From assembly GCF_000023865.1 (NCBI RefSeq), contig NC_013159.1:1700001-1764000 (forward strand): a stretch of DNA of 64,000 bases. Direction: 5' to 3'. The translations under genes and the position numbers were made by a program. This DNA is from Saccharomonospora viridis DSM 43017. GTDB lineage: Bacteria > Actinomycetota > Actinomycetes > Mycobacteriales > Pseudonocardiaceae. Positions 15,063 through 53,368 of the stretch are shown here, piece after piece. Each line of letters starts with the position of its first letter. Position 1 is the stretch's first letter. The notes beneath the pieces are model-generated. The model had not been told where the DNA came from. It saw nothing but the letters and a program-made list of their open reading frames with translations, and did no database searches.

Positions 15063-15899
15063 TCACACGGCGTCGAGGACGCCCAGCAGGCGGATGACCT
15101 CCTCGGTCATCGCGGCGCGGCCCGCACCGAGGTATTTGCGCGGGTCCACCACCGTGGGGTGTTCGGCGAGATAGTTCCGCACGGCGTCGGTGAGTGCGTG
15201 GTTGAGGTGCGTGGCGATGTTGATTTTCGTCATCCCGGCGCGGATGGCGGCGGTCAACGTCGCATCGGGCACACCCGACGATCCGTGCAGCACCAGTGGC
15301 ACGTCCACGGCTTTGCGGAGTTCGTCGATCAGATCCAGGTCGAGGACGGCGGTGCGTTCGAGCATCGCGTGCGAGGAGCCCACCGCGACCGCCAGCGAAT
15401 CGACGCCGGTGTCACGGACGAACTCGGCCGCCTCCTTCGGATCGGTGCGTACACCGGGGGCGTGCACCCCGTCCTTGCCGCCGATCTCGCCCAGTTCCGC
15501 CTCCACGGCCGCTCCCACGGCGTGGGCCTCGGCCACGACCTCCGCCGTGCTCGCCACGTTGTCGGCATAAGGCAGTGCGGAGGCGTCGAACATCACCGAC
15601 GTGAACCCCAGTTCCAGGGCCTCGCGAACGAGGGCGCGGTCGTCGGCGTGGTCGAGATGCAGCACCAACGGCGCCGACGACGCCTCGGCCACGGCGGTCA
15701 CCGCTTTCGCCAGTGGTGCCAGCGCACCGCGGTAGCGCACGGCGTTCTGGCTGATCTGCAACACGATCGTGCAGCCGGTCGCCTCGGCCGCCGCCGCGTA
15801 CGCTTCGGCGTGTTCGAGTTGGATGACGTTGAACGCGGCCAGACCACGACGTTCCCGGCGAGCGCGGCGCAGGGCGTCGTGCGGGGTCACCAGGGGCAT
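15063..15899 (-). CDS. Class II aldolase, fructose/tagatose-bisphosphate type
   Basis: 278-residue zinc-dependent TIM-barrel aldolase. HLDHADD near residue 80 carries the catalytic aspartate and a zinc histidine, EAELGEIGGKDG near 135 and HGSSGVPD near 205 complete the GatY/KbaY/FbaA pattern. It would cleave tagatose-1,6-bisphosphate (or fructose-1,6-bisphosphate) into glyceraldehyde-3-phosphate and dihydroxyacetone phosphate. It is the last gene of the leftward amino-sugar operon, seven bases after the SIS gene. Tagatose specificity is inferred from the neighbouring PfkB kinase and SIS isomerase. Confidence 0.88.
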   Translation of the reverse strand: MPLVTPHDALRRARRERRGLAAFNVIQLEHAEAYAAAAEATGCTIVLQISQNAVRYRGALAPLAKAVTAVAEASSAPLVLHLDHADDRALVREALELGFTSVMFDASALPYADNVASTAEVVAEAHAVGAAVEAELGEIGGKDGVHAPGVRTDPKEAAEFVRDTGVDSLAVAVGSSHAMLERTAVLDLDLIDELRKAVDVPLVLHGSSGVPDATLTAAIRAGMTKINIATHLNHALTDAVRNYLAEHPTVVDPRKYLGAGRAAMTEEVIRLLGVLDAV

Positions 15900-15906
15900 G
15901 GGCTGC

Positions 15907-16791
15907 TCACTCCCCCGACAGGATGATCGACCGGGTCAGGTGACGGGGACGGTCGGGGTCCAGTCCCTTCGACAGCGCATACGCCACCGCGAACAGCTGG
16001 CACCGCACCAGGGTCAGCTGCGGGTCCTCGTCGAACCACAACGCCAACGCCCCCGTGGCCTCCACCTCCTCGACGAGACCGTCGGGACGGGAACCGAGGA
16101 ACACCACGGCGGAGTTCTCGTCGGAGATCGCCTTGGGACCGTGCCGGTAGTCCATGGCCGGGTACGACTCCGTCCACGCCAGCGCCGCTTCCCGGCACTT
16201 GAGGGCCGCCTCGTGTGCGAGACCGACGCTCCACCCCCGGCCGAGGAACGTGATCTGGGTCCGTTCCAACAGGGCGGAGGGCGCCGACCAACGCACCGCG
16301 TCCTTTGCCGCCGCGGCCAGGGACTCGACGTCCTCGCCGAGACCGGCCCGCAGCAGGGAGAGCGTCGAGGTGGCGAACCGGGTCTGCACCACCGACCGTT
16401 CGTCGGCGAACGGCAGGGTCACGACTTCGTCCGCCGCCTCGCGGCCCGGCGAATCGGGATCACCGATGATGGCGAGCGTCGGCACGTTCCCCCGCAGCTT
16501 GCGCAACAGAGTGAGCACCTCGCTCGTCGTGCCGGAGCGGGAGATCGCCACGACGAGGTCGTAGTCCCGACCCGTGGGGAACTCGCTGGCGGCGAAGGCG
16601 TCGGTGACACCGTGACCGAGACCTTCCCGACGTGCGGCATAGGCCTGGGCGATGAACCAGCTCGTGCCGCATCCGACGACGGCCACACGCTGTCCGCGCC
16701 GAGGCAGTGGGGACGAGGGGGCCAGCGCGGCGGCCTGTCGCCAGGTGTCGGGCTGGGTGGCGATCTCGGTGGAGACGAGGGGAGTGGTCAA
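15907..16791 (-). CDS. SIS-domain sugar-phosphate isomerase/deaminase (AgaS-like)
   Basis: 294 residues with two sugar-isomerase domains: VVGCGTSWFIAQ near residue 38, ISRSGTTSEVL near 83, and the C-terminal YRHGPKAI motif near 220 found in GlmS-isomerase, AgaS and FrlB proteins. AgaS converts galactosamine-6-phosphate to tagatose-6-phosphate plus ammonia. The protein is shorter than E. coli AgaS (about 384), so a related deaminase/isomerase on another amino sugar remains possible. It sits between the ROK kinase and the aldolase, exactly where this step is needed. Confidence 0.8.
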   Translation of the reverse strand: MTTPLVSTEIATQPDTWRQAAALAPSSPLPRRGQRVAVVGCGTSWFIAQAYAARREGLGHGVTDAFAASEFPTGRDYDLVVAISRSGTTSEVLTLLRKLRGNVPTLAIIGDPDSPGREAADEVVTLPFADERSVVQTRFATSTLSLLRAGLGEDVESLAAAAKDAVRWSAPSALLERTQITFLGRGWSVGLAHEAALKCREAALAWTESYPAMDYRHGPKAISDENSAVVFLGSRPDGLVEEVEATGALALWFDEDPQLTLVRCQLFAVAYALSKGLDPDRPRHLTRSIILSGE

Positions 16792-16846
16792 TTACTTTCG
16801 CTCCTTGTCGAACGTGCCTTCGATCGGACGTGGTGAGGGCCTCGGG

Positions 16847-17854
16847 TCATTCGGCCGCACCGGGTTCGCTTCGGGTACGCACTGCGTCCGCGTACGCGGT
16901 GAGGATCGGGTCGAGGTCGATGTCGGCCGCCTCCCAGCCGAGCAGCGCGGCGCCCCACGAACCGGCCGCTCCGCCGAGGACGGCGGGCAGGATGTGCGCG
17001 GTGGGGTGCACGGTGAGCCGTTCGCGCACTCGGTCCCGTAGCGGCGTGAGCAGGGCTTCTCCCGCGTGGACCAGGCCGCCGCCGATGACGATCCGGGCCA
17101 CGCCGGTCACGCGGATCAGGTCCGCCACGACGGAACCCAGCACCTCGACGGCGTCCTCCCACACCCGGTGGGCCACCGCGTCGCCTTCCCGGGCGCGGGC
17201 GAGCACGTCCCGTGCGCCGTCGACGGGGATTCCCGTCGACGCCGTGTAGCGGCGGGCGATCGCGGCGGCCGAGGCGACGGTCTCCGCGCAGCCCCGCCCG
17301 CCACAGGTACAGGGTTCGCCCTCGAGTGTGCCGCCGTGGCCGATCTCCCCGGCGTAGCCGCCCGAGACCACCAGGCGGCCGTCGAGCAGCAGCGCAGCGG
17401 CCAGTCCCGTGCCCACCGACACGTACACCTGGTCGGCGATTCCGCGGCCCGCGCCGAGCCGCCACTCCGCCGTCGCCGCCGAGCGCACGTCGTGGCCGAA
17501 GCCCACAGGCAGACCGGTGTGCCGCAAGACCCGTTCGACCACGGGCAGTTCCCGCCAGCCCAGGTTCTCCGAGTACACGCACACCCCGCGACGTTCGTCG
17601 ACCGTGCCGGGAACGGCCAGGCCGATCCCCACGGGCGTGTGCGTCGAGGGCAACGCGGCCAGCGCAGTGTCCACTGTGTCTAAAACCACGCCGAACGAAC
17701 GTTCCGGCCCGTCCGCGGCGCGGGTGGGGGTCGTGCCGCGACGGAGGACTCCGGTGCGGTCGGCGACGAGCCATTTGACGAAGGTCCCGCCCACGTCGAG
17801 GGCCACGACGGCGGGCTGAGGTGGCGAATTACCGATCGTCTGGGACACGGGCAC
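16847..17854 (-). CDS. ROK-family sugar kinase
   Basis: 335 residues. ALDVGGTFVKW near residue 18 is the phosphate-binding motif, GYAGEIGHGG and the zinc-binding CTCGGRGCAE near residue 185 are ROK hallmarks. There is no N-terminal winged helix, so it is a kinase rather than a NagC-type regulator. It would phosphorylate the imported amino sugar with ATP (GalNAc or GlcNAc 6-kinase by context). GTG 17854 directly abuts the TAG of the upstream permease gene, with no intervening base, so the genes are co-transcribed. Confidence 0.85.
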   Translation of the reverse strand: MPVSQTIGNSPPQPAVVALDVGGTFVKWLVADRTGVLRRGTTPTRAADGPERSFGVVLDTVDTALAALPSTHTPVGIGLAVPGTVDERRGVCVYSENLGWRELPVVERVLRHTGLPVGFGHDVRSAATAEWRLGAGRGIADQVYVSVGTGLAAALLLDGRLVVSGGYAGEIGHGGTLEGEPCTCGGRGCAETVASAAAIARRYTASTGIPVDGARDVLARAREGDAVAHRVWEDAVEVLGSVVADLIRVTGVARIVIGGGLVHAGEALLTPLRDRVRERLTVHPTAHILPAVLGGAAGSWGAALLGWEAADIDLDPILTAYADAVRTRSEPGAAE

Positions 17855-18784
17855 CTACTTGACGCTTCCCGCCGTCAGACCGGCGACGAGTCGTTTCTCG
17901 ATGAAGGCGAACAGGATGACCACCGGCACGATCGCCACGATGGAGACGCCGAACACGTACTGCCAGGCCGAGTCGTACTGACCCACGAATTTCGTCAGCG
18001 CCACCGAGAGCGGCTGGTTCTCCGCCGAGGTCAGGATCACCAACGAGGCCGCGAACTCGTTCCACGCCGCCACGAACGTGAAGATGACCGCCGTGACGAT
18101 ACCCGGCCACACCAACGGCAAGGTGACGCGGAAGAACACGGTCCACCGTCCCGCGCCGTCGAGCTGGGCCGCCTCGTCGAGTTCCTTGGGGATCGCCGCG
18201 AAGAACGAGTGCATGATCCAGGTGGCGAACGACATGTTGAACGCCGCGTTGATCAGGATCATGGCGAGCCAGGTGTCCTGGATACCCCACGACAGCACCT
18301 GTCGGAACAGCCCGGCCACCAGCACGGCCGGTTGCAGCATCTGGGTCACCAGCACGCAGAACAGGAACGCCAGACGACCCGGGAAACGGAACCGTGCCGT
18401 GTAGTACGCCGCGGGGGTGGCCACGGCCAGGGTCAGCAGTGTGGCACATCCCGCGATGACCAGGGTGGACGTGAGGTTGTCGGGCAGCGGTGTCTCCGGA
18501 GTCGACCACATGGAGACGTAGTTCTCCGGAAGCCATTCCTCCGGCAGGTATGTGGGCGGTATGCGCAGGATCTCCGGGCGTGACTTGAACGAGCCCACGA
18601 GCATCACGAGGTAGGGCAGCAGGAAGACGATCGCGACGATCGCCCCGGCGATCATGCGCAGGGGTGTCGACCCTCGAGCGCCCGGCGCTTCCCGGGTCCG
18701 GCGGGACCGGCGTCGCGGTGGACCCGGGGGAGTCGGGGTGGCCGGTTCCGTGGTCGGGGCGGTGGTCTCGGCAGCAGTGCTCAT
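17855..18784 (-). CDS. Carbohydrate ABC transporter permease (MalG-like)
   Basis: 309 residues. A proline/arginine-rich cytoplasmic N-terminus (residues 1-35) precedes six hydrophobic helices; the EAA loop EAAQLDGAGRWTVFFRVTLP near residue 200 contacts the ATPase. It forms the inner-membrane channel with the preceding MalF-like permease, with which it overlaps by four bases. No ATPase gene is in this operon; the MsiK homologue at 50938-52032 is a likely partner. Confidence 0.92.
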   Translation of the reverse strand: MSTAAETTAPTTEPATPTPPGPPRRRSRRTREAPGARGSTPLRMIAGAIVAIVFLLPYLVMLVGSFKSRPEILRIPPTYLPEEWLPENYVSMWSTPETPLPDNLTSTLVIAGCATLLTLAVATPAAYYTARFRFPGRLAFLFCVLVTQMLQPAVLVAGLFRQVLSWGIQDTWLAMILINAAFNMSFATWIMHSFFAAIPKELDEAAQLDGAGRWTVFFRVTLPLVWPGIVTAVIFTFVAAWNEFAASLVILTSAENQPLSVALTKFVGQYDSAWQYVFGVSIVAIVPVVILFAFIEKRLVAGLTAGSVK

Positions 18785-19698
18785 TCGTCGACCGCCTTCA
18801 GAGGTTTCACGATCCGGATGTACACCGCGATCACCACGATGACGATGATCAGGTTGAGTACGGCGAGCGCCGAGGCCATGCCCGAGTCACGCATGTCCTG
18901 GAGCACTTTGAACATCAGCGTGGTCGTGGTGTCGGCGTCGTATCCCGGCAGCGCTCCGGTGACGACGCTGAGGATGGGGAAGTTGTTGTAGACGTTGATG
19001 ATGTTGATGATCGTGGCCACGGCGAGCGCCGGTCGCAGATGCGGCAGCACGATCCTGAAGTAGGTCACGCGTGGTGAGGCCCCGTCGATCCGAGCCGCCT
19101 CCAGCAGCTCCGGGCTGATCGACTGCATGCCCGCCAGGATCGTGTAGGTGGTGAAGGGCAACGACACGAAGATCGCGATCCCGATGGCGACCAGGAACGC
19201 CGACGGCATCGACTTGGTGAAGCCGAAGTCCGGTGAGTCGATGAGGCCGACGTCGTGCAGGAACTGCTGCACGATGCCGTAGCCCGGTTCGAGTCCGTAG
19301 TAGATGACGGTGGTCGTCATCACCACCGACGCCGCCCACGGCACGATGACCGCGAGCCGCACGAACTGCCGTCCGGGGAACGCCTTGTTGAGCAGGTTCG
19401 CCAGCGCCAGTGAGAGCACGATCGTCACGATGACCACGACCGACACCCACAGCACGGTGCGCAGCAGCACCCCCGGGAGGGCGGGCATGTCGAACAGGGC
19501 CTTGTAGTTGTCAAGACCCGCACTACCGCGGTCCACGCCGGTCCGGGAGATCTCCCGCGTGGAATTGACGATCATCAGGATGGCCGGGTAGAAGACGATC
19601 CCGGCGATGAGGAGCAGGCTCGGTCCGATCCACGGCAGCGCCCGCAGCAGATCACGGGCTCCGCTCGTGCGGCGGCCGCCGGTGGTGACTGATGGCAT
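18781..19698 (-). CDS. Carbohydrate ABC transporter permease (MalF-like)
   Basis: 305 residues with about six transmembrane helices and the EAA loop LLEAARIDGASPRVTYFRIV near residue 205. ATG 19698 was chosen because GGGAAGG precedes it and the protein begins MPSVTTGGRR; a longer open frame to 19818 would add 40 low-complexity residues into the intergenic space. It lies 64 bases downstream of the binding-protein gene and overlaps the second permease (ATGA). Confidence 0.9.
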   Translation of the reverse strand: MPSVTTGGRRTSGARDLLRALPWIGPSLLLIAGIVFYPAILMIVNSTREISRTGVDRGSAGLDNYKALFDMPALPGVLLRTVLWVSVVVIVTIVLSLALANLLNKAFPGRQFVRLAVIVPWAASVVMTTTVIYYGLEPGYGIVQQFLHDVGLIDSPDFGFTKSMPSAFLVAIGIAIFVSLPFTTYTILAGMQSISPELLEAARIDGASPRVTYFRIVLPHLRPALAVATIINIINVYNNFPILSVVTGALPGYDADTTTTLMFKVLQDMRDSGMASALAVLNLIIVIVVIAVYIRIVKPLKAVDE

Positions 19699-19762
19699 CG
19701 ACGTTCCCTTCCCAGGACGCCGGGCGGGCCCGGAACGGACCGCACCCGGCGTCCGGACACGC

Positions 19763-20983
19763 TCAGGCGTTGTCGATCTCGGCTTGGATGGCGGACAACA
19801 CCTGTTTCGGGTCGTCACCCGAGACGATCAACCCGATCTGTGACTGCATGGCCGCCTGGGCAGTGGCCCACGCGGGGTTGGTCGACGGGTAGAACTGCGC
19901 GTGGGGCAACAGTTCGAGGAACGGTTTCATGGCCTCGTCGGTGCTCTCCTCCGCGCCGGACTTGGTGACGGGCAGGAAACCCTCGGTCTCGACGAACTTC
20001 AGGTAGTTCTCCGGCTGGTAGAAGAATTCGAGGAACGCCCCGATCTCCTCCGTCTTGTCCTCGTCGTTGCGGAAGGCCATGAGGTGGTCGGCCACACCCA
20101 ACGTCACCTTCTCGCCGTCCTTCGTGGGAATGTCCACGATGGAGTAATTCAGGTCGGGGTTCTTCTCCTCGATCATGCCCACGATCGGTGGAAGACCCAT
20201 CGCCATGCCGAATTTGCCCTGGATGAACTGGTCCAGCATGGGAGTGCGCTGGGTGGCTCCGGCGTCGGGCTGGGTCAAGCCGTCGTCGTAGAGGCGCTTC
20301 ATGAACCGCGCCGCCTCCAGGTTCTGGGGCGTGTCCACGGTGATCTTGTCCGGCGTGCCGTAGCCGCCGCCCGCGCCGAGGAACCAGATTCCCGCCTCGG
20401 CCTGCGATTCCTCCGACCCGAGCGGGAGACCGTAGCCGTAGGCGTCGGTGGATTCGGTGATCGCCTTCGCCGCGTCGTACAGCTCGTCCCAGGTCGTGGG
20501 CGGTTCTTCGACGCCCGCCTGCTCCAGCAGGTCGTCGTTGACGAACAGGGCCCTCGCCGAGGCGATCAGGGGGAAGCCGTACTGTTTGCCGTCGACGGAG
20601 GCGTTCTCCCGGAAGGAATCCTGGAAGTCGTCGATCGTCTCCTGCGACACCAACTCGTCAGCCGAGTACAACAGGTCGTCCTCCACGTACCCGGCGAAGG
20701 TGTCGATGCTCAGGATGTCGGGGGCTTTGTTCGTCTGCACCCGCGTGCGGATGACGTCGTTGATGTTCTCCCACGACTGGATCTCCAGGTTGACGGTCAC
20801 GCCCGGGTTGGCGTCCTCGAACTCTGCGATCACCTCCTCCCAGAGCTTCTTCGTGTTGTCCGAATAGGACGCCGCGAGCATCGTCAGTTCGACACTGCCG
20901 TCGTCCGAGCCTCCGCCCGAGCAGGCGGTGAGCGCTATCGCGGTCGCCGCGACCAGGGCAGTGGCCCGCGATCGTCTTGTCAC
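19763..20983 (-). CDS. ABC sugar-binding lipoprotein
   Basis: 406-residue extracellular solute-binding protein (family 1). A signal peptide with lipobox LTACSGGG ends at a cysteine near residue 20, so it is a membrane-anchored lipoprotein. The mature part has the two-lobe pattern, including FEDANPGVTVNLEIQSWENI and the C-terminal NPAWATAQAAMQS. GTG 20983 is preceded by GAAGGAGAACC; the frame continues upstream but without signal-peptide character. It delivers an amino sugar or oligosaccharide to the two permeases downstream. Ligand is inferred from the GH109 and kinase neighbours. Confidence 0.92.
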   Translation of the reverse strand: MTRRSRATALVAATAIALTACSGGGSDDGSVELTMLAASYSDNTKKLWEEVIAEFEDANPGVTVNLEIQSWENINDVIRTRVQTNKAPDILSIDTFAGYVEDDLLYSADELVSQETIDDFQDSFRENASVDGKQYGFPLIASARALFVNDDLLEQAGVEEPPTTWDELYDAAKAITESTDAYGYGLPLGSEESQAEAGIWFLGAGGGYGTPDKITVDTPQNLEAARFMKRLYDDGLTQPDAGATQRTPMLDQFIQGKFGMAMGLPPIVGMIEEKNPDLNYSIVDIPTKDGEKVTLGVADHLMAFRNDEDKTEEIGAFLEFFYQPENYLKFVETEGFLPVTKSGAEESTDEAMKPFLELLPHAQFYPSTNPAWATAQAAMQSQIGLIVSGDDPKQVLSAIQAEIDNA

Positions 20984-21066
20984 GGCTGGTTCTCCTTCAC
21001 GGTCGAGAGCGGGAAATCGGGGTGGGTGTGCAAACCGGTGCGAAGTGGCGGAGCCTCGCTCGCGCT

Positions 21067-22482
21067 TTAACGGCGGTTCCCGGAGACCGGCGGCATGTCG
21101 GTCTCCTCGGAGTCCAGGCCCGGACGCGGCTCCTCCCAGCGGCCCCGCGTGAAGTCCGGTACCGCCACGGGTCGGCTGCCCTTGCGGATCGACTCCGCCG
21201 ACAACGGCACGGGCGCGCACCAGGCCGCCGAGTCGTACACGTCGATGTCGGGCACGAGACCCGCACGCATCTGCTGGATGATCCGCCACTGCAGGATGTA
21301 GTCCATGCCGCCGTGGCCGCCGTTGTTCTCGGCGTCGTCGCCGACCTTGCGCCACAACCAGTGGTCGTAGCGGTCGAGGTACGGCTTGGCGTCCGCCCAC
21401 TGGTGGTTGGTGTGGTCGGGTTCGACGTAGATGCGGGTGGGGTAGTCCTCGAAGACGCCGCGGGTGCCGGCGATGCTGTTGATCCGGCTGTACGGGCGCG
21501 GTGAGCTGACGTCGTGTTCGGCGCGCACCATCCGGCCCTTGGCGGTCATGAGCATGCACGTCGTGCGGTCACCCTTGACGTAGGTCTCGCTCCACGACGG
21601 GTGGTCCTTGGGCATGAACCGCTCGCGGTAGTCGGCCAGGCCCAGCGCGGCCGAGCTCGTCGCCGTGAGATAGGTGAACCGGTCACCACGGTTGATGTCC
21701 ATGCAGGCCGCGATCGGTGCGAGGCCGTGCATGGCGTAGAAGCTGGCGTCGATCTTGGTGTGCCACGCCCGTCGCCAGTCCTCGGGGGTGTAGTGGCCGT
21801 TGAACAGCAGTTCGCGCAGGTCGTGCAGGTAGCCGCCGTGCCCGTTGGTGAGCTCGCCGAACAGGCCGTCGTGAGCCATCCGGAGGATGGCCAACTCGTT
21901 GCGGCCGTAGGAGCAGTTCTCCATGAGGAAGCAGTGCCGCCGTGCGCGTTCGCTGGCGTCCACGAGCTGCCACAGCTCCTTGAGCTCGGTGGCGATGGGG
22001 AGCTCGATCCCGACGTGCTTGCCGTTGCGCAGTGCGGCCATGCCCTGGCGGAAGTGCCATTCCCACGGGGTGGCGACGTAGACGAAGTCCACGTCATCGG
22101 ACGCGCAGAGTTCCTCGTACGCCTTGTCACTTCCGGTGTAGACGGTCGGACGGCGACCGGTCTCCGATTTCACGGCCTCGGCAGCGCGTTGGGCGTGGTC
22201 GGGCACGACGTCGCACACCGCGGTGACGACCGCGCCCGGGACGGCGGTCCAACCGGACAGCATGCCCATGCCGCGGTTGCCCAGGCCGATCAGTCCGATG
22301 CGGACCTCGTCGTAGCGGTCGAACGGTACTCCGATCATGGAGCGTTGTCCGCGGGCCCGTTGTGGGGCTTCGGCGGTGCTGGTCACCGCGTTGGCGGGGA
22401 TGGTGCCGCTTGCGGCAACGACTCCCGCCGCCAAACCCACGCTCTGCAGGAACGACCTTCGACTCGGCCTGACGTCCACCAT
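21067..22482 (-). CDS. GH109-type Gfo/Idh/MocA glycosidase, Tat-exported
   Basis: 471 residues. A twin-arginine signal (RPSRRSFLQSVGLAAG, residues ~5-20) is followed by a Rossmann NAD-binding domain (IGLIGLGNRGMGML near 65) and the GH109 core: MENCSYGRNELAILRM, GGYLHDLRE and CMDINRGDRF. GH109 enzymes are NAD-dependent alpha-N-acetylgalactosaminidases that keep their cofactor bound, which explains Tat export in folded form. First gene of the ABC-transporter operon: it would release GalNAc outside the cell for the importer. ATG 22482 follows GAGGAGAGTTC. Enzyme specificity within GH109 varies, so GalNAc is a strong but unproven assignment. Confidence 0.87.
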   Translation of the reverse strand: MVDVRPSRRSFLQSVGLAAGVVAASGTIPANAVTSTAEAPQRARGQRSMIGVPFDRYDEVRIGLIGLGNRGMGMLSGWTAVPGAVVTAVCDVVPDHAQRAAEAVKSETGRRPTVYTGSDKAYEELCASDDVDFVYVATPWEWHFRQGMAALRNGKHVGIELPIATELKELWQLVDASERARRHCFLMENCSYGRNELAILRMAHDGLFGELTNGHGGYLHDLRELLFNGHYTPEDWRRAWHTKIDASFYAMHGLAPIAACMDINRGDRFTYLTATSSAALGLADYRERFMPKDHPSWSETYVKGDRTTCMLMTAKGRMVRAEHDVSSPRPYSRINSIAGTRGVFEDYPTRIYVEPDHTNHQWADAKPYLDRYDHWLWRKVGDDAENNGGHGGMDYILQWRIIQQMRAGLVPDIDVYDSAAWCAPVPLSAESIRKGSRPVAVPDFTRGRWEEPRPGLDSEETDMPPVSGNRR

Positions 22483-22575
22483 GAACTCTCCTCGTTGACA
22501 GTCGGTGTGTCCGGCATCGGCGAATCCCGTGCCGCCGGGTGCAGGAGCCGCGGATGCCGTCGGGGCCCGTGTGTG

Positions 22576-22592
22576 GCGGCAATCTTTGCCGC
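22576..22592. promoter_or_regulatory. 17-bp palindrome over the probable -10 region of the amino-sugar operon
   Basis: GCGGCAA-TCT-TTGCCGC is a perfect seven-base dyad. It covers the place where a -10 element would lie for the leftward promoter whose -35 (TTGACA on the minus strand) is at 22611-22606, so a protein bound here could repress the GH109/ABC operon. It does not resemble the DeoR-type site next to it and may belong to a second regulator. Confidence 0.4.
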
Positions 22593-22605
22593 GGTGCCAA
22601 CAAGC

Positions 22606-22611
22606 TGTCAA
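22606..22611 (-). promoter_or_regulatory. -35 element of the GH109/ABC operon
   Basis: A perfect TTGACA on the minus strand, 124 bases from the GH109 start codon. The matching -10 at 17-18 bases spacing (around 22583-22588, CAAAGA/AAAGAT) is weak, which is expected of a regulated promoter. Confidence 0.45.
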
Positions 22612-22614
22612 GAG

Positions 22615-22652
22615 TTGATTGAAACAGACGCATTTCAATCAAAATCAATCAA
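22615..22652. promoter_or_regulatory. DeoR-type operator upstream of the GH109/ABC operon
   Basis: TTGATTGAAA (22615-22624) and TTTCAATCAA (22633-22642) form a perfect ten-base dyad with an eight-base spacer. A third half-site AATCAATCAA follows at 22643-22652, and the region is strikingly A+T-rich for this genome. Repeated TGATTGA/TCAATCA half-sites are typical of DeoR-family sugar regulators. It lies just upstream of the TTGACA element, and the DeoR gene is 1.2 kb away. Confidence 0.65.
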
Positions 22653-22764
22653 GAAGCGGGTAGACGCGTAGTCCGCCCGCGAACATTCACTCCCTTCGCC
22701 CGAACGGCCTCGTCTTGGCTGCGACGAACGGAGTATTCGCCGCCGTGTTACGGACCAGTGGGTG

Positions 22765-23703
22765 TCAACGGCCGTCCGGCGTGGTCACAGAGACGGTGGT
22801 TCGAAAACGGTGACAGAAGGCGAGATCCACCTCACCCGCGACGGGCCTGGTGACGGCGGACGCGGACAGGGCGACGGCGTCGGCGAGGCAGCCGGCGAGC
22901 GTCGTCTCCAGCGATGCGTCCGTGTCCTGCAGCGCACGGGCCAACGCGGCCACCGCGGCGTCCCCTGCGCCCGTGGGATTGCCGTGCACCACCGTCGACG
23001 GACGTGCTCGCCAGGTTCGCGGACGGTCGGGCTCGCCCGTGGCCGCGAGCATGCCGTCCTCACCGAGTGAGGCGACGACACCGTGGGCCCCGTCCTTGAG
23101 CAACGTCCGTGCCCCGGTGAGGACGTCCTCCTCGCCGGTCGCGGCGCGCAGCTCGTCGCGATTGGGTTTGACCAGCGTCGCTCGGGCCCGGGCCGCGACG
23201 CGCAGTAGAGGTCCGGAGGTGTCCACGATGATGCGTGCGTCGTGCGCCACGACGGTGTCCACGAGTGTGTGCACGACGTGCTCGGGGGTGTCCGGCGGCA
23301 TCGAACCGGACAGCACCACCACGTCGCCTTCCCCGGCGAGTTCGGACACCAAAGCGGTCAGTCGTCGCCAGGCCGCCTCATCGACGGGTGCGCCGGGTTC
23401 GTTGAACAGGGTGGTGTCGGAGGCGGTGACGACGGCGGTGGTGCGGCGGGTCGGCTGTTCCACCGCCACCCATCGCTGGTCGACGTCGCCCAGGAGGCGG
23501 CGGAGGCGATCACCGGTGTCCCCGCCGAGAAAGCCCGTGCACACCACCGTTTCGCCGAGTTGGCGCAGTACGCGTGCGACGTTGACGCCTTTGCCCCCCG
23601 GGGTTTCGGAGACCCGGTGGACCCGGTTGACGTCACCCCAGTGCGCGTGCGGAAGGTGGTAGGTGACATCGAGGGCAGGGTTGGGCGTGATCGTGAGGAT
23701 CAT
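22765..23703 (-). CDS. PfkB-family 1-phosphofructokinase / tagatose-6-phosphate kinase
   Basis: 312 residues of the ribokinase fold: ITPNPALDVTY at the N-terminus, GGKGVNVARVL near residue 36 (PfkB signature 1) and GNPTGAGDAAVAAL near 245 with the catalytic GAGD aspartate. LacC/FruK-like enzymes phosphorylate tagatose-6-phosphate or fructose-1-phosphate. In this locus it would link the SIS product to the class II aldolase. ATG 23703 begins the conserved MILTITPNP; upstream in-frame sequence is the divergent promoter region shared with the DeoR gene. Confidence 0.87.
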   Translation of the reverse strand: MILTITPNPALDVTYHLPHAHWGDVNRVHRVSETPGGKGVNVARVLRQLGETVVCTGFLGGDTGDRLRRLLGDVDQRWVAVEQPTRRTTAVVTASDTTLFNEPGAPVDEAAWRRLTALVSELAGEGDVVVLSGSMPPDTPEHVVHTLVDTVVAHDARIIVDTSGPLLRVAARARATLVKPNRDELRAATGEEDVLTGARTLLKDGAHGVVASLGEDGMLAATGEPDRPRTWRARPSTVVHGNPTGAGDAAVAALARALQDTDASLETTLAGCLADAVALSASAVTRPVAGEVDLAFCHRFRTTVSVTTPDGR

Positions 23704-23879
23704 GGGGGCTCGCTTCCCGCTGCGGTGATAGATACTGTTCGTTTCAGCGGAGTTTGAAGCAATTTCCGTCACGAGGCCAGTACGATGAGGACGATAACAC
23801 TCGGCCTGGACAGGCAACGCCGTGTTCAGCGGCACGCCGAGGGACCCCTTGCCGGGCGCGACAGTGAAAGAGAGTGTCG

Positions 23880-24665
23880 ATGAACCGCCACGAGAGGTTA
23901 GCGGGACTGCTCGAACTCATCATCGAGAGGGAGAGTGTCCACATTGATGACCTCGTGCGTGAGCTCGGCGTGTCGGCGGCCACGGTGCGACGCGATCTCG
24001 ACGAGCTTGCCGAGCAGCAACTCATCATTCGCACGCGTGGAGGCGCCACGACGGCCCCCGGTTCCTCCGACCTGCCACTGCGGTACAAGACGGCACGTCA
24101 TCCCGAGGAGAAGACGCGCATCGCCCGGGAGGCGGCGTCGATGGTGGAGCCGGGTCAGGTGGTCGGGCTCAACGGCGGTACGACGACCACCGAGGTCGCC
24201 AGGGAGATCGCGGTACGCCCCGAGCTGCGTGCTCCCACGCCGGGGGACGAGGTCGTCGTGGTCACCAATGCCGTCAACATCGCCAATGAGCTCACCGTGC
24301 GTCCCCATCTGCGGGTGGTGGTGACCGGGGGCGTGGCCCGCGCGTTGAGCTACGAGCTCACCGGGCCGTTGGCGGCGCCGATCTTGGAGCAGATCTCGCT
24401 GGACGTGCTGTTCCTCGGTGTCGACGCGATCGATGTCGAACGGGGGGCCGCCGCGCACCACGAGGGAGAGGCGGCGGTGAACGGTGTGTTCGTCGCTCGG
24501 GCCAACCGAGTGGTGGTGGTCGCCGATTCGGCCAAGCTCGGCAAGACGGCGTTCGCGACGATCTGCGGTATCGACGCGGTGGACACGTTGATCACGGACA
24601 CCAACGCCGATCGCCGGGTGGTGCAGGAGTTCCGCCGCAGCGGAGTGGAGGTCATCCGGGTCTGA
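23880..24665 (+). CDS. DeoR-family transcriptional regulator
   Basis: 261 residues: an N-terminal DeoR winged helix (residues ~3-57, DLVRELGVSAATVRRDLDEL) and a DeoRC sugar-phosphate sensor domain with LNGGTTTTEVAR near residue 95 and FLGVDAID near 178. It is divergent from pfkB and most likely represses the amino-sugar genes until a phosphorylated sugar binds. ATG 23880 was chosen because GAAAGAGAG lies six bases upstream; a GTG at 23874 would be too close to it. Confidence 0.9.
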   Translation: MNRHERLAGLLELIIERESVHIDDLVRELGVSAATVRRDLDELAEQQLIIRTRGGATTAPGSSDLPLRYKTARHPEEKTRIAREAASMVEPGQVVGLNGGTTTTEVAREIAVRPELRAPTPGDEVVVVTNAVNIANELTVRPHLRVVVTGGVARALSYELTGPLAAPILEQISLDVLFLGVDAIDVERGAAAHHEGEAAVNGVFVARANRVVVVADSAKLGKTAFATICGIDAVDTLITDTNADRRVVQEFRRSGVEVIRV

Positions 24666-50937: not shown

Positions 50938-52032
50938 TCAGACCGTGAGGCGCACCCCGCTTTCGGGATCGAACATGTGCGCAGCCTCCGCGTTGCGGAG
51001 GGTGACTCGCATGGTCTCGCCGAACGACGGGGTCCGGTCGGCCTCCGTGCGGACGATGAACCGCTCCTGACGGTCGGCGACGTTCACCTGCCCGTAGACG
51101 TAGGCGTCCGAGCCGAGCACCTCGACGAGTTCGACCTTCAGCGCCAGGGCGGGTTCGTCGGCCGAGGCGGGTCGCAGGCTCTCCGGACGGATGCCCACCG
51201 TCACTTCGCGTAGACCGGAGTGACGGGTGAGCACCTCGCGGGCCACGGGGACGGTGAGACCGTCCAGCACGGCACCCTCCTCGGTCAGCGGCACGGTGGT
51301 GAGGTTCATGGCGGGGGAACCGATGAACCCGGCCACGAACACGTTCGCGGGGGCGTTGTAAAGGGTCTTGGGCGTGTCGCACTGCTGCAGGACGCCGTCC
51401 TTGAGCACCGCCACACGGTGCCCCATCGTCATGGCCTCCACCTGGTCGTGTGTCACGTAGACGGTGGTGGTGCCCAGCCTGCTCTGCAAGGCCGTGATGT
51501 TGGCCCGGGTCTCCACCCGCAGTTTCGCATCCAAGTTGGACAGAGGTTCGTCCATCAGGAACACCGAGGGTTCCCGGACGATGGCACGCCCCATGGCGAC
51601 CCGCTGGCGCTGACCTCCCGACAGCGCCTTCGGCTTGCGATCGAGGTAGTCGGTGAGATCGAGCAGGCGGGCGGCCTCGGCGACTCGTTCGGCGATCTCG
51701 GTCTTCGGCACCCGCTTGATCTTGAGGGCGAATCCCATGTTCTCCGCGACCGTCATGTGCGGGTACAGCGCATAGGACTGGAACACCATCGCGATGTCGC
51801 GGTTTTTGGGGGAGACCCCGGTGACGTCCTTGCCGCCGATGGTGATGGAGCCCTCGTCGACGTCCTCCAGGCCGGCGAGCATACGCAACGCGGTCGACTT
51901 CCCGGAACCGGAGGGGCCGACCAACACGAGGAATTCGCCGTCGGCGATGTCCAGCGACAGTTTGTCCACGGCCCGGACGGGAGGATTGCCCGGAAAGACA
52001 CGGGATGCTTCGACGAACGAGACCTCGGCCAT
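50938..52032 (-). CDS. msiK: Sugar ABC transporter ATPase (MsiK/UgpC-type)
   Basis: 364 residues. Walker A GPSGSGKST near residue 39, Q-loop FQSYALYPHM near 84, signature LSGGQRQRVAMGRA near 134, Walker B VFLMDEPLSNLDAKL near 157, and a C-terminal TOBE/regulatory domain (VTVGIRPESLRPA). This is the multi-sugar MsiK type that energises several sugar importers encoded elsewhere without their own ATPase. It could serve the transporter at 17855-20983. A ROK regulator is divergent, with the palindrome AGTCCAGTGGACT between them. Confidence 0.92.
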   Translation of the reverse strand: MAEVSFVEASRVFPGNPPVRAVDKLSLDIADGEFLVLVGPSGSGKSTALRMLAGLEDVDEGSITIGGKDVTGVSPKNRDIAMVFQSYALYPHMTVAENMGFALKIKRVPKTEIAERVAEAARLLDLTDYLDRKPKALSGGQRQRVAMGRAIVREPSVFLMDEPLSNLDAKLRVETRANITALQSRLGTTTVYVTHDQVEAMTMGHRVAVLKDGVLQQCDTPKTLYNAPANVFVAGFIGSPAMNLTTVPLTEEGAVLDGLTVPVAREVLTRHSGLREVTVGIRPESLRPASADEPALALKVELVEVLGSDAYVYGQVNVADRQERFIVRTEADRTPSFGETMRVTLRNAEAAHMFDPESGVRLTV

Positions 52033-52159: not shown

Positions 52160-53368
52160 GTGGAGCGAAACGCTCCGGCCCGACCGGAGCAGCAGCACGC
52201 GCACAATCTGGCGCTGGTATCGCGGCTGATCTTCACGCACGGTCCGGTGTCTCGGGCGGAGCTGGCCAAGCACAGCGGGTTGACGAAGACGACGGTGACG
52301 CAGTTGACCCGCGAGCTGCTGGACGCGGGACTGATCCGCGAACTGGGGCTTTCCCGGTCGAACGGTCCCGGCAGGCCCGCCACCCACCTCGTGGTGAACT
52401 CGTCCGGACCGGTGGGCATCGGTGTGCAGATCGAGGCCGACCACGTGGCGGGCTGTCTGTTCGATCTCACCGGACGGTTGCGGGACCGCGCCCTGCGCAG
52501 AGGGGACGACCTTCGAGGGGACCCGGTTCTCGCGGCGAAGGCAGCGGAGCCGGTGCTGCGCAGACTGCTGGCGACGGCCGACGCACGGGACACCGTGGTC
52601 GCCGGTGTGGCGGTGGGGGTGCCCGGACGGGTGGACGATTCGGGCAGGGTGCATTCGGTGGAGCTGGGCTGGGCCGACGTGGAGCTGTCCCGGCTGCTGA
52701 CGCACCGTCTGGAGGTCCTCAGCGGAGGACTCATCCCCGTGACGACGTACAACGGATTCCAGCTCGCCGCGTTGGCCGAACACTGGTTCGGCGCGGTGGA
52801 GACCGACGGACGACCGTTGGTGGTCGTCGCCGGTGAACTCACGGTCGGTGTGGGCGTCGTGGGACTCGGGGACGTGGCCTCGTGGAGCACCGGTCCCGCG
52901 GGGGAGTTGGGGCACGTACGGGTCCGACGAGGCGGTGACCGGTGTGTGTGCGGTGCACGCGGCTGCCTGGACACCGTGGCGGGGCCCAGAACCCTGCTTC
53001 GGGCGTCGGGGCCGGACACCCCCGTGGTGTCGCGGTTGTCCGGAGGCGATGGTCGAATGCGGGCACTGGCACGTTCCCGTGATCCGGAGTCGGTCCGAGT
53101 GCTACGCCGAGCGGCGGCCGCGCTGGCCGACTCCCTCGCCGGGTTCGTGGCCGCACTCGGCCCGGCGACCGTGGTCCTCGGTGGTCATTTCGCACCGTTG
53201 GGTCCGGCTTTCGCGCAACGGGTCGCCGGCGAATTGCACAACCGCTGCGGACGGACCGAGGTGACGGTGACGGCATCGCACCTGGACGGGGACGCCGTCG
53301 CCCGCGCCGCCGCCGTGACGGTCACCCGGCGGCTCGTGGACGACCCGACTCGATGGATGGCCAGCTGA
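52160..53368 (+). CDS. ROK-family transcriptional regulator
   Basis: 402 residues. A winged helix at residues ~15-75 (VSRAELAKHSGLTKTTVTQLTRELLDAG) precedes a ROK sugar-sensor domain with the zinc motif RCVCGARGCLDT near residue 255. Rok7B7-like proteins control sugar uptake in Streptomyces. It is divergent from msiK, its probable target. GTG 52160 has GGGAGGCGACAGC upstream. The kinase ATP-binding loop is degenerate, as usual for regulators of this family. Confidence 0.88.
   Translation: MERNAPARPEQQHAHNLALVSRLIFTHGPVSRAELAKHSGLTKTTVTQLTRELLDAGLIRELGLSRSNGPGRPATHLVVNSSGPVGIGVQIEADHVAGCLFDLTGRLRDRALRRGDDLRGDPVLAAKAAEPVLRRLLATADARDTVVAGVAVGVPGRVDDSGRVHSVELGWADVELSRLLTHRLEVLSGGLIPVTTYNGFQLAALAEHWFGAVETDGRPLVVVAGELTVGVGVVGLGDVASWSTGPAGELGHVRVRRGGDRCVCGARGCLDTVAGPRTLLRASGPDTPVVSRLSGGDGRMRALARSRDPESVRVLRRAAAALADSLAGFVAALGPATVVLGGHFAPLGPAFAQRVAGELHNRCGRTEVTVTASHLDGDAVARAAAVTVTRRLVDDPTRWMAS

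Follow-up and report, generated by a model that had tools for sequence, protein, structure and literature searches.

A DeoR-controlled locus of Saccharomonospora viridis predicted to convert N-acetylgalactosamine to triose phosphates with a deacetylase and an ATPase shared from elsewhere

Introduction

The Aga/Kba locus of Escherichia coli encodes AgaS, AgaA and KbaY, depends on import by the phosphotransferase system (PTS), contains no glycosidase and holds its deacetylase inside the locus. The Aga pathway of Shewanella comprises a permease, the kinase AgaK, a deacetylase and AgaS (PMC2996990), and the sugar ATP-binding cassette (ABC) clusters of streptomycetes are mostly without an ATPase gene, MsiK being the most likely energiser (PMC6167110). 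We analysed a stretch of 64,000 nucleotides from S. viridis DSM 43017 (NC_013159.1, positions 1,700,001 to 1,764,000; hereafter the window), in which nine genes at 15063-24665 form a locus with a GH109 glycosidase gene. The probability that this DeoR-controlled locus scavenges N-acetylgalactosamine (GalNAc) and turns it into triose phosphates, with a NagA deacetylase and an MsiK-type ATPase shared from elsewhere, was put at roughly three in four.

Results

The minus-strand genes of the locus stand in the transcription order PfkB, GH109, binding protein, two permeases, ROK, SIS and class II aldolase, and the DeoR regulator, the only plus-strand gene, is divergent from the rest. The elements considered are the following (window coordinates).

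15063..15899, minus strand: class II ketose-bisphosphate aldolase, predicted to cleave tagatose 1,6-bisphosphate (PF01116, 289.3 bits; TIGR00167)
15907..16791, minus strand: SIS enzyme, predicted galactosamine-6-phosphate deaminase/isomerase yielding tagatose 6-phosphate (PF01380, 61.9 bits; predicted structure)
16847..17854, minus strand: ROK sugar kinase, predicted GalNAc 6-kinase, in which His-Asp replaces the usual Asn-Asp (PF00480, 165.9 bits against a cut-off of 22.9; relatives in PDB)
17855..18784, minus strand: ABC sugar permease 2 (PF00528, 68.5 bits)
18781..19698, minus strand: ABC sugar permease 1 (PF00528, 60.8 bits for the longer open reading frame (ORF) 18781-19818; start ATG 19698 picked by eye)
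19763..20983, minus strand: lipoprotein sugar-binding protein (PF13416, 128.5 bits for the longer ORF; LTAC lipobox; start picked by eye)
21067..22482, minus strand: GH109 glycosidase with a twin-arginine translocation (Tat) signal (PF21252, 178.1 bits; PF01408, 56.8 bits; PDB 6t2b and 2ixa)
22583..22652, minus strand: putative GH109 operator and promoter
22765..23703, minus strand: PfkB-family hexose-phosphate kinase, predicted tagatose-6-phosphate kinase (PF00294, 133.6 bits; TIGR03168; start ATG 23703 picked by eye)
23874..24665, plus strand: DeoR-family regulator, divergent (PF00455 and PF08220; under the cut-off of the AgaR model NF040755)
50938..52032, minus strand: MsiK/UgpC-type ABC ATPase that may energise the importer (NF008653, 455.4 bits over a cut-off of 432)

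An identical set of nine genes, in the same order, was found in two congeneric genomes (L038 and L039), indicating that the grouping is not due to chance. Gene content, families and conservation are established: the GH109, importer, ROK, SIS, PfkB and aldolase genes placed here by a first-pass annotation all scored to their families. That annotation had also reported neither a deacetylase nor a transporter ATPase within the locus, in agreement with the lack of any amidohydrolase or ABC ATPase among the scanned gene products of 15063-24665, so its term "complete" holds at most for the whole genome and fails for the locus itself. An ORF overlapping the ROK ORF (16788-17774) had no Pfam match.

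We infer the substrate of each enzyme, the import route and the service of NagA and the MsiK-type ATPase to the pathway as follows. The Tat-exported GH109 would release GalNAc outside the membrane, and the binding protein and two permeases would bring it in, powered by the shared MsiK-type ATPase. The ROK kinase would form GalNAc 6-phosphate (GalNAc-6-P). Its acetyl group would be removed by the only NagA of the genome, whose gene lies outside the locus and is preceded by a DasR-type box, and the SIS enzyme would convert the resulting galactosamine 6-phosphate to tagatose 6-phosphate, to which PfkB would add a second phosphate before the class II aldolase split the bisphosphate into triose phosphates. 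Having its own PfkB and aldolase, the locus fits a route through tagatose better than one through fructose.

The start of the GH109 gene was taken as ATG 22482, which was preferred because it yields the twin-arginine stretch SRRSFLQ, the longer ORF extending into the promoter. Both its Rossmann NAD domain (PF01408) and its C-terminal domain (PF21252) scored above cut-off, and the closest solved structures were those of the GH109 protein 6t2b (E 2.9e-96) and of 2ixa, an alpha-N-acetylgalactosaminidase. All seven positions that we take to be the active site of the E. meningosepticum enzyme (E149, Y179, H181, R213, Y225, H228 and Y307) were kept in 21/21 sequences, and their letters were confirmed in the 2ixa alignment. 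The Bacteroides GH109 enzyme BT4243 frees GalNAc from the Tn antigen and was assayed with the p-nitrophenyl (pNP) substrates pNP-alpha- and pNP-beta-GalNAc (PMC11992087). The protein of the locus is a predicted GalNAc-type glycosidase that may prefer the alpha or the beta anomer.

The ROK kinase scored 136.5 bits with the glucokinase model TIGR00744, under its cut-off of 260.35, and neither the SIS nor the ROK enzymes of the cassette passed any equivalog model scanned. The residue that we take to be the catalytic Asp was kept in 30/30 cassette loci. It is usually preceded by Asn in ROK proteins, which we did not treat as defining, and in glucokinases this Asn contacts the sugar O3/O4. His preceded the Asp in 30/30 loci whose ROK was at least 40% identical to that of the window, and in 32/32 ROK gene calls (window included, one genome being apparently duplicated, L038 = L058). 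Eighteen other loci with a ROK match had Asn at that position and one extra ROK gene had Gly, and all 5 alignments shown, of 9 ROK relatives listed from PDB, had Asn. Given the contact with O3/O4, a change from Asn to His would suit a galacto sugar.

Nine places in the genome carry a PF01979 amidohydrolase, and the search for nagA that the first-pass annotation had proposed returned a single gene over the NagA cut-off, at C1:4148479 (TIGR00221, 276.5-276.9 bits against 225.65). This gene and the ORF at 50938, which passes the UgpC-type cut-off, are both present, consistent with the proposal that deacetylase and ATPase would come from elsewhere. A sigma-70-type gene stands before this solo nagA, and directly before the nagA start (G000:C1:4148457-4148468; L013:8458) lies the DasR-type box TGGTCTGGACCA, one base off the DasR site consensus core TGGTCTAGACCA (PMC4398421); of 12 relatives compared that also have a solo nagA, 5 carry the same box before the gene. 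The pattern TGGTCTNGACCA has four exact matches genome-wide; with one mismatch there are 162, against 75 for a control pattern, and since such matches are not rare the box alone is no proof. In the window no DasR-type box was found at up to 2 mismatches.

The NagA of S. coelicolor acts on GalNAc-6-P with a kcat of 29 per s and a kcat/Km about a tenth of that for N-acetylglucosamine 6-phosphate (PMC12680351 Table 1). Among 298 genomes of the same order, which are related, so that p-values are optimistic, NagA was present in 100/100 of those bearing the SIS gene against 123/198 of those without it (Fisher p-value = 1.3e-16). Cassette genes were counted by tblastn in the best 80 loci by score, mostly from Streptomyces and Micromonospora, giving fractions that are not population rates; some of these loci end at a contig edge, and the threshold may miss divergent PfkB, which was detected in 16/80 loci. 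In 25 of the 80, NagA followed the SIS gene at a distance of 0-1.1 kb. In the NagA tree, two Kutzneria in-cassette proteins fell inside the Pseudonocardiaceae group that holds the solo NagA of this genome (branch 100/99; midpoint root). The best reading is that NagA is borrowed from the N-acetylglucosamine (GlcNAc) system for deacetylation of GalNAc-6-P.

Four genomes, those of L050, L051, L052 and L053 (G205, G133, G220 and G163), carry two SIS copies each, one beside GH109 without NagA and the other on a separate contig, about 2 kb from a NagA match.

Growth on free or polymeric galactosamine, in which no deacetylase would be needed and GH109 would trim residual acetylated ends, is unlikely. 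It would account for the lack of a deacetylase in the locus and in the same 19 kb of ten relatives with linked GH109 and SIS genes, and the absence of AgaA beside AgaS was read as a mark of galactosamine use in a survey of gut genomes (PMC5583593). Against it stand the 25 loci, among the 80 best, whose cassette includes NagA, the presence of a NagA in each of the 100 SIS genomes, the release of GalNAc by the characterised BT4243 (PMC11992087), and the lack of a GH114 family match in the genome. The galactosamine-like substrate kept in reserve by the first-pass annotation thus lost ground to GalNAc, in view of these cassette-borne nagA genes. Galactosaminogalactan use was also rejected on the GH114 result, other polygalactosaminidase families not having been searched.

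The SIS protein (294 residues) fell under the cut-off of all nine NCBIfam models that it matched, including GlmD (NF041128, 95.4 against 580 bits). A MurQ-type model was not among the nine, and NagS, a MurQ-related SIS protein, was compared by description only: it is a GlcNAc-6-phosphate dehydratase confined to Streptomycetaceae that does not bind GalNAc-6-P in Streptomyces (PMC12680351). The predicted structure of the SIS protein (mean predicted local distance difference test score, 87.9) was nearest to 2dec, 2df8 and 2cb0 at Z 32, the last titled glucosamine-6-phosphate deaminase, and E. coli 3c3j, a tagatose-6-phosphate ketose/aldose isomerase, matched at Z 29.6; rows within Z 1 count as tied, and a common fold shows no function. 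The protein is best called an SIS deaminase/isomerase of unsettled subfamily.

Near its C-terminus, at residue 287, it has Arg, constant among relatives, at the position of Lys in the aligned T. maritima deaminase; at residue 214, in the motif before RHG, it has Asp where three aligned solved relatives have Glu, the two alternating among relatives. The sole PF01182 match in the genome, considered as a NagB, is the 6-phosphogluconolactonase Pgl beside opcA. Another SIS protein, at G000:C1:3773885 (L142:1333-2412), scored 208.8 bits with the isomerase part of GlmS and 204 with NagB-II (cut-off 430), both under cut-off, and may be a glucosamine-6-phosphate deaminase, no NagB being found.

It is quite improbable that the locus is instead a GlcNAc pathway, with its SIS enzyme serving as glucosamine-6-phosphate deaminase in place of the missing NagB. 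The failure to find NagB in the genome and the deaminases among the nearest solved structures would be in keeping with this role, but PfkB and aldolase genes of its own would then be superfluous, GH109 belongs among the GalNAc-type glycosidase families, another genomic SIS protein resembles NagB-II, and the DasR-type box at nagA has no counterpart in the window.

NAD+-dependent sulfoquinovosidases are akin to GH109, but sulfoquinovose routes are not known to include an SIS or a ROK protein, which counts against a locus of that kind. Such enzymes exist (PMC10755693) and the binding protein has a distant relative in SmoF (ranked last of 24, E 8.7e-11), but with all GH109 active-site positions kept and NagA present in related cassettes a sulfoquinovose locus is hardly credible.

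The PfkB protein scored 260.6 bits with the broad hexose kinase model TIGR03168 (cut-off 216.4) and 130.1 with the LacC model TIGR01231 (409.55). The aldolase likewise passed the broad model TIGR00167 (234.2 against 215.6) and remained under the cut-offs for the tagatose (TIGR01858, 217.9 against 443.55) and fructose (TIGR01859, 253.5 against 343.05) enzymes. For the DeoR regulator, AgaR (NF040755) was the best model, at 190.7 bits against a cut-off of 260.

The GH109 promoter region contains TTGATTGATTTTGATTGAAA, then TTTCAATCAA, followed by a -35 box (TTGACA) and a -10-like box (CAAAGA). Two congeners share the direct repeat and the two boxes, the inverted arm being less well kept. No second exact copy of the operator was found in the genome, and allowing 3 mismatches added two places, whereas the reversed control pattern gave 4. 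A regulon common to nagA and the locus was rejected, given the lack of a second exact operator and of a DasR-type box in the window at up to 2 mismatches. In related loci, the hexamer TTGATT (either strand) occurred 27 times in 55 spacers between DeoR and SIS genes (2.66 per kb; 25/55 carried it), whereas the 622 remaining spacers of those loci contained 16 copies (0.15 per kb). In total, the 79 spacers upstream of SIS contained 31 copies, against a mean of 2.5 and a maximum of 9 in 500 shuffles; these loci are related, hence not independent.

The MsiK-type ATPase at 50938, a candidate for powering the GalNAc importer, is flanked by a divergent ROK-type regulator on one side and an ORF without Pfam match on the other. 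The regulator (52160-53368, plus strand) belongs to the ROK family and has a MarR-type domain at its N-terminus.

The SIS cassette is widespread in actinobacteria, with at least 589 relatives among 597 candidate stretches, and GH109-bearing genomes among the 298 also had SIS in 21/21 cases (p-value = 2.4e-11). Matches to the SIS protein were found in 129 plasmid records and 19 phage records, three listed ones of the latter being 26-27% identical. On a Kitasatospora plasmid, nagA, deoR, SIS, ROK, hexose kinase and aldolase genes lie side by side, with nagA on the opposite strand. The conjugative plasmid p232 of Arthrobacter sp. Rue61a (L184) has SIS, ROK, hexose kinase and aldolase genes next to sulfatase and formylglycine-generating enzyme genes, which hints that this cassette serves sulfated GalNAc glycans. 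A scan of 30 neighbour genes of relatives gave GH20 in L062, GH35 in L113 and GH1 in L132; the rest mostly seemed unrelated to amino sugars.

Discussion

Several observations weigh against GalNAc scavenging as proposed here. The SIS protein reached 34.9 bits with the AgaS model TIGR02815 (cut-off 529.2), and neither the aldolase models nor those for PfkB decided between tagatose and fructose. Linkage is loose: GH109 and SIS lay within one 19 kb stretch in only 10 of the 20 relatives fetched, in 0 of those 10 did the stretch include NagA, in 6/10 ROK was undetected, and only 3 of the best 80 SIS loci had GH109. NagA is common regardless (223/298 genomes), making its presence alone weak evidence, and the genome pattern search found no close copy of the locus operator near nagA. 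A second MsiK homologue (C1:665978, 51% identity) could energise the importer instead, and the NagB-II-like SIS protein at C1:3773885 could compete for amino-sugar phosphates.

Conversion of GalNAc to triose phosphates, as the first-pass annotation had it, is nevertheless the likeliest reading, with predicted substrates. The candidate NagA and MsiK-type ATPase are probably common to other sugar pathways, and the apparent gaps of the locus seem to reflect the usual sharing of components. A locus that appears incomplete can thus be completed by shared parts, which calls for caution with "galactosamine only" assignments where agaA is unclustered. The His-Asp ROK motif offers a testable one-residue marker of specificity, and attention is drawn to the widespread actinobacterial SIS cassette. 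More tentatively, and on balance doubtfully, there may be an unnamed actinobacterial GalNAc pathway in which a short GlmD-like SIS protein replaces AgaS, His for Asn lets the ROK kinase accept the axial O4, and GH109-linked forms leave deacetylation to the NagA of the DasR regulon, so that GalNAc use would be gated by GlcNAc supply. No description of an actinobacterial GalNAc pathway with a non-AgaS SIS enzyme and a His-Asp ROK kinase was found in the literature searched, which covered few subscription journals.

The locus resembles the E. coli Aga/Kba locus in its SIS enzyme leading to tagatose 6-phosphate, its second kinase, its class II aldolase and its DeoR-type regulator, and differs from it in the points of import, glycosidase and deacetylase named at the outset. 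The importer without its own ATPase recalls DasABC/NgcEFG of Streptomyces, energised by MsiK; those systems, however, serve GlcNAc and chitobiose, ngcE is repressed by DasR, and GH109 is not mentioned in the available portion of the report (PMC6167110). A GH109 alpha-GalNAcase linked to a GalNAc kinase is also found in BT4240-4250 of B. thetaiotaomicron, but in a mucin setting and with a kinase that phosphorylates O1 and was compared with the N-acetylhexosamine kinase BL1642 (PMC11992087). Non-PTS import, a separate kinase, a deacetylase and an SIS-type step are shared with the Shewanella Aga pathway (PMC2996990), whereas here the deacetylase is unlinked, the SIS enzyme is not AgaS by model score, the importer is of the ABC type and a GH109 with a Tat signal is attached. 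The locus makes sense as a variation on an established pathway and is no mystery, its modest novelty lying in the non-AgaS SIS enzyme and the His-Asp ROK kinases.

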